A stretch of 32,223 nucleotides of DNA from Pontiellaceae bacterium (lineage in GTDB: Bacteria; Verrucomicrobiota; Kiritimatiellia; Kiritimatiellales; Tichowtungiaceae): assembly GCA_029939835.1 (NCBI GenBank), contig JAOZSE010000010.1:1-32223 (forward strand). Direction: 5' to 3'. The position numbers were made by a program, and so were the translations under genes. Under the pieces are notes generated by a model that worked only from the letters and a program-made list of their open reading frames with translations, made no database searches and was not told the DNA's origin. This document shows positions 10,507 through 30,637 of this stretch, one piece after another; position 1 is the first letter of the stretch, and the number at the start of each line of letters is the position of its first letter.

Positions 10507-10556
10507 GTAGGGCGGGGGCCGTGACCCCGCCGAGATTCCGCGATCACGGATCGCGG
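10507..10556. repeat. GTAGGG-type twin-hairpin palindromic element
   Basis: GGCGGGG-GCCGTGA-CCCCGCC (10511-10531) then CCGCGA-TCACGGA-TCGCGG (10538-10556); loops share complementary CCGTGA/TCACGG. Confidence 0.7.
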
Positions 10557-10613
10557 CTGCAAATTGTTCTAGATTTAGACGGCCATCCTGTGAAATAAAC
10601 ACTTCTTAGTCCT

Positions 10614-11246: not shown

Positions 11247-11324
11247 GGTAGGGCGCGTTCGCCGAACGCGCCGCCAGTCCTGAGCTTTCTCGGAGGGCGG
11301 ACGGCTCGGCGAGCCGTCCCTACC
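11247..11324. repeat. GGTAGGG...CCCTACC twin-hairpin palindromic element
   Basis: GGCGCGTT-CGCCG-AACGCGCC (11252-11272) and GGACGGCT-CGGCG-AGCCGTCC (11299-11319); complementary loops CGCCG/CGGCG. Confidence 0.85.
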
Positions 11325-11328
11325 AAAA

Positions 11329-11360
11329 ATGCCCCGTGGCTTGCTGCGGGGAGTTTCACT
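11329..11360. repeat. ATGCCCCG(T/C)GG...TTGCTGCGGGGAG repeat, copy 1
   Basis: ATGCCCCGTGGCTTGCTGCGGGGAGTTTCACT; near-identical copies at 13670 and 13769. Confidence 0.8.
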
Positions 11361-13593: not shown

Positions 13594-13669
13594 GTTCCTC
13601 TCCACGGGAGGGCTGGCCGTCGGGCCGGGAGGAGTGCTCTGTCTGTTTTTTTACCGAAATTGTCGCAGA

Positions 13670-13800
13670 ATGCCCCGTGGCTTGCTGCGGGAATGAATGC
13701 GTCCCTCGAAAGGTAGGGACGCCTCTCCGAGGCGTCCGCGGACCGCTCGGAGAGCGGTCCCTACCAAGATGCCCCGCGGGTTGCTGCGGGGAGCTTCACT
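13670..13800. repeat. Composite repeat: ATGCCCCG copy, GGTAGGG...CCCTACC twin hairpin (13712-13765), second ATGCCCCG copy (13769)
   Basis: GGACGCCT-CTCCG-AGGCGTCC and GGACCGCT-CGGAG-AGCGGTCC inside; flanking ATGCCCCGTGGCTTGCTGCGGG and ATGCCCCGCGGGTTGCTGCGGGG. Confidence 0.85.
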
Positions 13801-22413: not shown

Positions 22414-22441
22414 GTAGGGGCGGGATGCATTCCGCCCGTAC
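22414..22441. repeat. Single-hairpin GTAGGG-type element between adaptor and RND pump genes
   Basis: GTAGGGGCGGGATGCATTCCGCCCGTAC; stem GGGCGGGA/TTCCGCCC, loop TGCA. Confidence 0.75.
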
Positions 22442-22453
22442 AGGAGAGAGAAT

Positions 22454-29430: not shown

Positions 29431-30513
29431 ATGAACACTGACCGCATAGAACGGATTCTCAATTCCGGCTATCGTGCGGTACTTGTCACTACCGGCGGCG
29501 GATCGAGCGCCGTCAACGCCCTGCTTACCGCGCCCGGCGCGTCGCACTTCGTCGTTGAGGCGCACGTACCCTATTCGCCGGAAGCGATCGAACGATTCCT
29601 CGAAAAAAAACCGGAACATTCCGTTTCTCCCGCAACCGCCCGCAAACTGGCCGAAGTGGCTTTTAATGTAGGACGGGCATCTTGCCTGTCTGGACAGGCT
29701 GGAAGCCTGTCCTACATTATGGGAATCGCCTGTACTGCGGCGCTGCAAACCGATCACGAGCGGCGCGGCGCCGACCGCGCCTTCATTTGCATCAAAACCG
29801 CCGGCGCCGAAAAAGTTTATGCGCTCCACCTGTCTAAAACCTCCCGCGAAGAGCAGGAAGCTCTTTTGAGCGACTGGCTGCTCACGCTGATCGCGTACGC
29901 TGTCGGTGCGGAACACGGCCTCATGCTTCCCGGCTCCTTCAACCCGTTTCACCAGGGGCACGCAAACCTGCTTAAAGCGGCGGAGCAAATGACCGGCTTG
30001 TCCGGCGTATTCGAACTTTCCTGCGCCAATGTGGATAAGCCACCGCTCGAAGAAGCCGAGTGCTTACGCCGCGTCGCCGCCATCAAAGATATTCCCGTGG
30101 CCCTCACCGACGCCCCGCGTTTTGTCCGGAAGGCGGAACTCTTTCCTAAAACCAAATTCGTTCTGGGATATGACACCGCCGCACGGCTTGTTGATCCGGC
30201 GTATTGCCGGGAAACGCCGCGTTCCAGCTTCGCTGAAGCTACGCAGGACAGGGAGGGCACGCGGCCTACAGAAGAAAGCTGTAGGCCCGGTATCCCTACC
30301 GGGCGCTGGCTGGAAATGTGGCGTGACTTCAAAGCGTTGGAGACCCGTTTTCTTGTTGCCGGACGTGCCTGTAGGCCGGGTGACCCCACCCGGCGAGAAA
30401 AATTCCTAACACTCAGCGACTTGAAATTGCCGGACGGATTCGAGGTTCTCTTTGCGCCGGTTCCTGAAGATCTTTTCCGCGAAGATATCTCCTCAACCGA
30501 TCTGCGCGGGTGA
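29431..30513 (+). CDS. CinA-C-like domain fused to NadD/cytidylyltransferase-like nucleotidyltransferase, with in-frame repeat insertions
   Basis: N-term VLVTTGGGSSAVNALLTAPGAS...GIACTAALQTDHERRGADRAFICIKTA; C-term LPGSFNPFHQGHANLLKAAEQ (HxGH-type) and DISSTDLRG. Confidence 0.75.
   Translation: MNTDRIERILNSGYRAVLVTTGGGSSAVNALLTAPGASHFVVEAHVPYSPEAIERFLEKKPEHSVSPATARKLAEVAFNVGRASCLSGQAGSLSYIMGIACTAALQTDHERRGADRAFICIKTAGAEKVYALHLSKTSREEQEALLSDWLLTLIAYAVGAEHGLMLPGSFNPFHQGHANLLKAAEQMTGLSGVFELSCANVDKPPLEEAECLRRVAAIKDIPVALTDAPRFVRKAELFPKTKFVLGYDTAARLVDPAYCRETPRSSFAEATQDREGTRPTEESCRPGIPTGRWLEMWRDFKALETRFLVAGRACRPGDPTRREKFLTLSDLKLPDGFEVLFAPVPEDLFREDISSTDLRG
29668..29715. repeat. 48-bp GTAGGAC...GTCCTAC twin-hairpin element in frame in the CDS (16 codons)
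   Basis: GTAGGACGGGCATCTTGCCTGTCTGGACAGGCTGGAAGCCTGTCCTAC; encodes VGRASCLSGQAGSLSY. Confidence 0.88.
30222..30305. repeat. Cluster of palindromic elements in frame in the CDS
   Basis: AGCTTC-GCT-GAAGCT (30226-30240); GGCCTACAG-AAGAAAG-CTGTAGGCC (30263-30287); GCCCGGTA-TCCC-TACCGGGC (30285-30304). Confidence 0.8.
30369..30395. repeat. Second CTGTAGG-hairpin copy in frame in the same CDS
   Basis: CTGTAGGCCGGGTGACCCCACCCGGCG; stem GCCGGGTG/CACCCGGC, loop ACCC. Confidence 0.8.
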
Positions 30514-30529
30514 ATACATTCTTCGAAAA

Positions 30530-30637
30530 GGCAGGGCGCTTTCGCCGAAAGCGCCGCCTCTTCTGGGCTTCGCCCAAGAGCGGACGGCGTCCTCCTTTGC
30601 CAAGGCTTCGGCGGACACGCGGCGAGCCGTCCCTACC
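30530..30637. repeat. Twin-hairpin GGCAGGG...CCCTACC element with second hairpin split by another repeat
   Basis: GGCGCTTT-CGCCG-AAAGCGCC (30535-30555); GGACGGC (30582-30588)...CGGCGAGCCGTCC (30620-30632); insert GTCCTCCTTTGCCAAGGCTTCGGCGGACACG (30589-30619). Confidence 0.8.

Follow-up and report, generated by a model that had tools for sequence, protein, structure and literature searches.

How does a palindromic repeat come to lie in frame within a gene that appears to be functional, and what brought it there? The question is raised by a 48-bp element of the window, meaning the whole 32,223-nucleotide stretch of DNA analysed here, which belongs to a genome (G000; Kiritimatiellia, Verrucomicrobiota) assembled to 1.93 Mb in 183 contigs. 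The element was found on the plus strand just as the first-pass annotation had quoted it, and its 16 codons are indeed in frame with the ORF around it. The features concerned are:

29431..30513, plus strand: gene for a CinA-C-like domain fused to a NadD/CTP_transf-like nucleotidyltransferase; the frame is open through all inserts.
29665..29718, strand unassigned: 54-bp unit with conserved flanks AAN...NTT (here AAT...ATT), either the element edge or a target preference.
29668..29715, plus strand: GTAG-type REP dimer (REPIN-like), the 48-mer, read in frame as VGRASCLSGQAGSLSY, residues 80-95 of the ORF.
29668..29690, plus strand: left REP arm GTAGGACGGGCATCTTGCCTGTC, a GTAG head with a hairpin.
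29693..29715, minus strand: right REP arm GTAGGACAGGCTTCCAGCCTGTC, also the sequence of each terminal arm of the xseA RAYT unit on contig C75.
30205..30306, plus strand: second in-frame insert of about 34 residues (CRETPRSSFAEATQDREGTRPTEESCRPGIPTGR), missing from the compared orthologs; contains a GTAG-headed hairpin at 30281-30304.
30367..30399, plus strand: third in-frame insert, a GTAG REP at 30371-30394 (GTAGGCCGGGTGACCCCACCCGGC), missing from the compared orthologs.

The N-terminal domain of the host protein is CinA-like, as had been proposed; Foldseek comparison with solved CinA structures gives E of about 1e-6 and probability 1.0, and the Pfam CinA match (20.7 bits) falls slightly under the cut-off. 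The C-terminal part resembles nicotinate-nucleotide-adenylyltransferase-type nucleotidyltransferases (CTP_transf_like, 1.4e-7). Full-length fusions also occur in Chloroflexi, Planctomycetes and gammaproteobacteria; the named relatives come from Kiritimatiellales, Pontiellaceae and other Verrucomicrobia MAGs. Judged by its substitutions, the host gene is under purifying selection, apparently functional and undecayed: pN/pS is 0.26-0.39 against five relatives, compared with 0.23-0.37 for relative-relative pairs, which rules out a pseudogene. Together with the open frame, these values bear out the proposal that the element resides in frame in an apparently functional gene of a lineage unrelated to Rickettsia. 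In an AlphaFold2 model of the host protein (mean pLDDT 88.7), residues 80-95 form a helix end and a turn preceding a strand, with pLDDT of about 81-86. Besides the 48-mer the gene holds at least two GTAG-headed inserts, both in its C-terminal half; the one at 30205-30306 is predicted to be disordered (pLDDT < 50 at residues 264-284), and the other belongs to a GTAGGCCGGGTGACC type with 22 copies, two of which flank a stand-alone RAYT match on contig C11.

A precise 16-residue insertion, checked by ortholog alignment across eleven congeners, proved to be only part of the picture. Among these, G003 alone has this element in the corresponding position, matching at 45 of 48 bases; the 48-mer common to the two genomes may reflect mere inheritance. 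The remaining congeners have about 7-19 unrelated residues at this position, partly resembling other repeats, and the length-variable site rules out a simple gain of 16 residues as a clean event. With fillings of this kind elsewhere, the site of the window element is best seen as a linker that has been overwritten repeatedly and that offers no clean empty state. At the upstream end of the CinA-like ORF, the preceding frames of L043 (G007) and L046 (G002) are rich in repeats such as LRTQNPKLETQNPKLRTRNSKLRTRNSELKTLNS; linker inserts such as FKFQSSNLEFL in relatives are apparently further short repeat families read as protein.

By its sequence the 48-mer is a GTAG-tagged REP dimer (REPIN), with two GTAG-headed hairpins facing outward. 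In the literature, REPs mobilised by RAYTs are recognised by a GTAG head with a hairpin, arranged as inverted pairs (PMC2817692, PMC8266576), and both traits were seen here: GTAG stands next to a short imperfect palindrome, and dispersed copies occur as outward-headed inverted pairs. As single-stranded DNA the 48-mer has a folding energy of -17.2 kcal/mol, with z = -6.4 relative to 200 shuffled sequences. The twin hairpins described earlier are formed by both arms, the left one containing one G-T pair; likewise the GTAG/CTAC ends hold as boundaries, the conserved unit being three bases longer on each side (AAN-GTAG...CTAC-NTT). This longer unit, or the target, is read from the A residues preceding the GTAG heads in 102 of 106 and 101 of 106 cases in G000 (two flank positions). 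Half-sites of the pattern number 108 in the genome, with none for the reversed-pattern control, and about 61 distinct elements were recognised, for the most part head-out pairs 47-75 bp long, with 48 as the commonest length. A second match to the left 19 bases is absent from the window, where none would be expected by chance. G000 has at least seven more coding genes with in-frame copies, a count of in-frame copies from which frame preference and survivorship are not separable. REPs of the GTAG type lying within genes have been described before, the majority from the verrucomicrobial O. terrae (Di Nocera et al. 2013, PMC3733652), so the 48-mer by itself belongs to a known type.

Several REP families seem, by sequence, to coexist in G000. 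Between its genes the window contains palindromes of other families, several with a GTAGG head, at 10507-10570, 11248-11323, 13713-13764, about 22428-22444 and 30540-30635; in addition, a 35-nt repeat (ATGCCCCGTGGCTTGCTGCGGGG...) has three near-copies beside or near intergenic palindromes (11326-11360, 13667-13701, 13766-13800).

What moves the window family is suggested by a genome search, in which ten Y1_Tnp matches were found in G000. Only one RAYT, on contig C75, was found with the window element's right arm (GTAGGACAGGCTTCCAGCCTGTC) at both of its ends, and it sits in a 646-residue stop-free frame with xseA on either side; NCBIfam gives the protein an xseA match (TIGR00237, 475.7 bits) in two stretches flanking a REP_Tyr_transpos match, and the unit has neither a start nor a stop codon of its own. 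This RAYT is at the same place in three of the 14 genomes of the genus (G000, G003 and G007); xseA is short and uninterrupted at the site in ten congeners, and G009 retains a REP-like remnant. The carriers have 67, 38 and 14 REP copies, respectively, while the eleven non-carriers have none (seven genomes), 1-4 (three genomes) or 26 (G004). REP abundance in these assemblies thus largely tracks the xseA-RAYT; G004 deviates, its 26 matches being mostly GTGG-headed and its xseA without a RAYT. The xseA-embedded RAYT is, on these sequences, probably the mobiliser of the window element. Two more embedded RAYTs of G000 have the same layout, in priA and in the gene for the CCA-adding enzyme (cca), and both are flanked on either side by GTGG-headed REP pairs of their own.

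These results bear on the kinship with Rickettsia palindromic elements (RPEs) suggested by the first-pass annotation, under which the 48-mer would be an RPE or an independent analogue, an in-frame inserter without a transposase of its own. It is palindromic, 16 codons long and in frame in a conserved gene, as such a reading would have it; however, its head is GTAG, where the rickettsial RPE/REP families have a CGTC tag and lack a dedicated transposase (PMC3733652), and G000 holds a RAYT with the same terminal arms, which copy number largely tracks. Tag and transposase together rule out RPE membership, and the suggested kinship was dropped; even the wider reading is considered extremely improbable.

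Residence of a RAYT inside genes is not confined to this genus. A profile derived from these RAYTs was run on 388 Verrucomicrobiota genomes, most of them MAGs, of which 114 have a match; among the matches listed, 58 of 150 RAYT places have stop-free frames that span 480-2175 aa, most of the remaining places forming a distinct peak at 200-299, and this share of embedded places is biased upward by the embedded forms from which the profile was made. Pfam and NCBIfam domains around the RAYT identify hosts such as PriA, LeuRS, ValRS, CarB, IspG, HsdR and MmeI; Eco57I/PglX-like methylases, mevalonate-diphosphate decarboxylase, glycosyltransferases and others are further hosts by domain, and for RarA-type, radical-SAM and some other hosts the recognised domain flanks the RAYT on a single side. 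Planctomycetota have matches in 62 of 392 genomes, with about 20 of roughly 113 places among the matches listed in frames of at least 480 (counted by eye); AlaRS and Eco57I-type methylases are examples of the hosts. Across 24 genomes outside Verrucomicrobiota reached via named loci there were six matches, none of them in a long frame. In-gene residence therefore appears, from frames and domain matches, to be common in Verrucomicrobiota and present also in Planctomycetota. Assembly artefact was rejected as an explanation, since the layout recurs across independent assemblies and nine congeners share an identical 300-mer with named MAGs.

The embedded RAYTs differ from other RAYTs at both ends. 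An ATG is present in the preceding 50 codons for 11 of 44 embedded RAYTs versus 41 of 45 others (Fisher 9e-11), and open reading continues past the RAYT domain for a median of 418 residues versus 19; the embedded forms run on into the host sequence, and stand-alone relatives of the same phylum have a start and a stop of their own. The stop of an ordinary gene would truncate the host and embedded RAYTs read through, so these are not ordinary gene insertions. Junctions with a perfect stem of 7 bp or more number 41 of 45 upstream and 43 of 45 downstream, compared with 8 of 90 codon-shuffled controls; stems at both junctions together with the open frames thus indicate that whole REP-RAYT-REP units are embedded and, as the frames predict, translated through. 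At the downstream junction of L178 a 17-bp perfect stem stands at the edge of the RAYT unit, where 7-9 bp is usual. That one repeat merely landed in frame in one tolerant gene is very improbable: the 48-mer has no stop in four of its six frames and its length is a multiple of three, which would make a chance event easy, but this leaves aside the other genes of G000 with in-frame copies and the whole transposases that have lost both start and stop.

The units might alternatively be spliced out, as a protein in the manner of inteins or as RNA in the manner of IStrons, and so be costless to their hosts, with the 48-mer as a relic. Conserved host sites, housekeeping hosts and patchy presence are what this would predict; against it, neither the 13 kb surrounding the xseA and priA units (L096) nor the window gave an Rfam intron match, and scanning the embedded proteins with Pfam and NCBIfam revealed no intein or Hint domain. 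The two junctions are moreover both stop-free, which RNA splicing would not need, and the REP-coded peptides at both edges vary freely among hosts. Splicing is considered decidedly unlikely, and the intron or IStron form of it is ruled out by the absence of an Rfam match.

A third possibility is domestication, in which the RAYT domain lends XseA, PriA, restriction enzymes and synthetases a useful DNA-processing function. NHxH and YIxxN (the HUH motif and the catalytic tyrosine of Y1_Tnp) are present in all eight aligned RAYTs; matches of the embedded forms to NCBIfam NF047646 (REP_Tyr_transpos) score 56.5-80.7 bits, mostly just under the cut-off of 80, and their pN/pS is 0.13-0.31 among closer pairs, with synonymous sites near saturation. 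RAYT and host parts both appear from these ratios to be under purifying selection. Selection on the RAYT and the many DNA-enzyme hosts (XseA, PriA, HsdR, PglX-like, MmeI) would suit domestication; yet LeuRS, ValRS, AlaRS, CarB, IspG and others are hosts too, the domain is missing at a given site in most congeners, and each unit keeps its own flanking REPs. Domestication is therefore considered unlikely.

The history of the units is one of repeated arrival. When 89 RAYTs are placed in a tree, embedded forms are intermixed with stand-alone ones (19 label changes versus 30 shuffled), and well-supported branches force at least six switches between the two; this interleaving rules out the embedded RAYTs as a single lineage. 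XseA carriers cluster in the tree, and PriA carriers, at a single site, fall into two groups. Three LeuRS units (L194, L196, L200) lie at the same place in the editing-domain region with different REP sequences, and a TilS linker holds a window-family copy, VGQASSLSGQHGRLSY, in G000 (L315) and different REP-like inserts (VDATPSSRF..., AEAGRAVPSEPPVRSP...) in congeners (L316-L325). From the priA, LeuRS and TilS patterns it follows that the same host sites have been settled repeatedly.

It is considered highly probable, on sequence comparison, that the 48-mer is a non-autonomous REPIN of a family whose transposase is the RAYT in frame in xseA, with copies tolerated by read-through. By analogy with other REP systems, the RAYT would act on single-stranded DNA, recognising the GTAG head with its hairpin, cutting, and joining the element elsewhere. 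The usual length of 48, a multiple of three, and the four stop-free frames mean that many insertions would be readable through, within AAN/NTT borders; coding copies would then survive in tolerant linkers, a cause that may likewise underlie the observed recolonisation of orthologous linkers by different REP families. The autonomous REP-RAYT-REP units would live in the same way, in frame within host genes, with no stop and usually no nearby start, so that the transposase could be obtained only as part of the host protein; the fusion proteins are presumably made and fold. Placement and inheritance would be intein-like, apparently without splicing, harm being avoided via translation. Inteins and IStrons, the nearest parallels in function, escape harm through splicing. 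The broader proposal carries less confidence and is somewhat favoured on balance: "translational passenger" transposons, complete REP-RAYT-REP units minus start and stop, would exist as host-translated domains in housekeeping and defence genes of Verrucomicrobiota and Planctomycetota, recolonising permissive sites, with the 48-mer as a miniature derivative.

RAYTs are commonly viewed as stand-alone, possibly domesticated genes, and the embedded RAYTs depart from that. What appears new and unexpected in these sequences is the in-frame residence of the cognate transposase inside host genes; a report of in-frame RAYTs was not found in the open-licence literature, and earlier notice is possible, one large Y1 survey having excluded "unexpectedly long proteins", which it took for gene fusions or annotation errors (PMC6006769). 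If true, this would be in-gene life achieved without inteins or self-splicing introns, by being translated and tolerated; the hosts (LeuRS, ValRS, AlaRS, PriA, XseA, CarB, IspG, restriction enzymes) would be a natural catalogue of sites where proteins tolerate insertions of 200 residues, and short REPs would supply proteins with new loops.

Among known systems, RPEs are also palindromes in frame within conserved genes, as the 48-mer is; they differ in tag, in having no dedicated transposase and in lineage. The GTAG REPs and REPINs moved by RAYT/TnpA-REP in E. coli, Pseudomonas and Stenotrophomonas (PMC2817692, PMC3116915, PMC8266576) share the GTAG head, the short GC-rich hairpin, the outward pairs, a RAYT between two inverted REPs and copies largely tracking the RAYT; unlike in those systems, the RAYT here is without a stop, usually without a nearby start, and in a host gene, and many REPs are, by their open frames, predicted to be translated. 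The intragenic GTAG/CGTC REPs of PMC3733652 are short REP dimers in ORFs, often repair genes, like the 48-mer; the RAYTs in the available text of that report are genes flanked by REPs or TIRs, and in-host RAYTs and recurrent site colonisation go unmentioned there. IStrons (PMC4227781) are likewise transposon units tolerated within genes, but they contain a group I intron, whereas RAYT units are without one and keep the frame open throughout. Inteins share in-frame insertion at conserved sites of essential genes and a patchy distribution; RAYT units, by contrast, are without an intein domain and have REP-coded edges and an HUH/Y1 enzyme.
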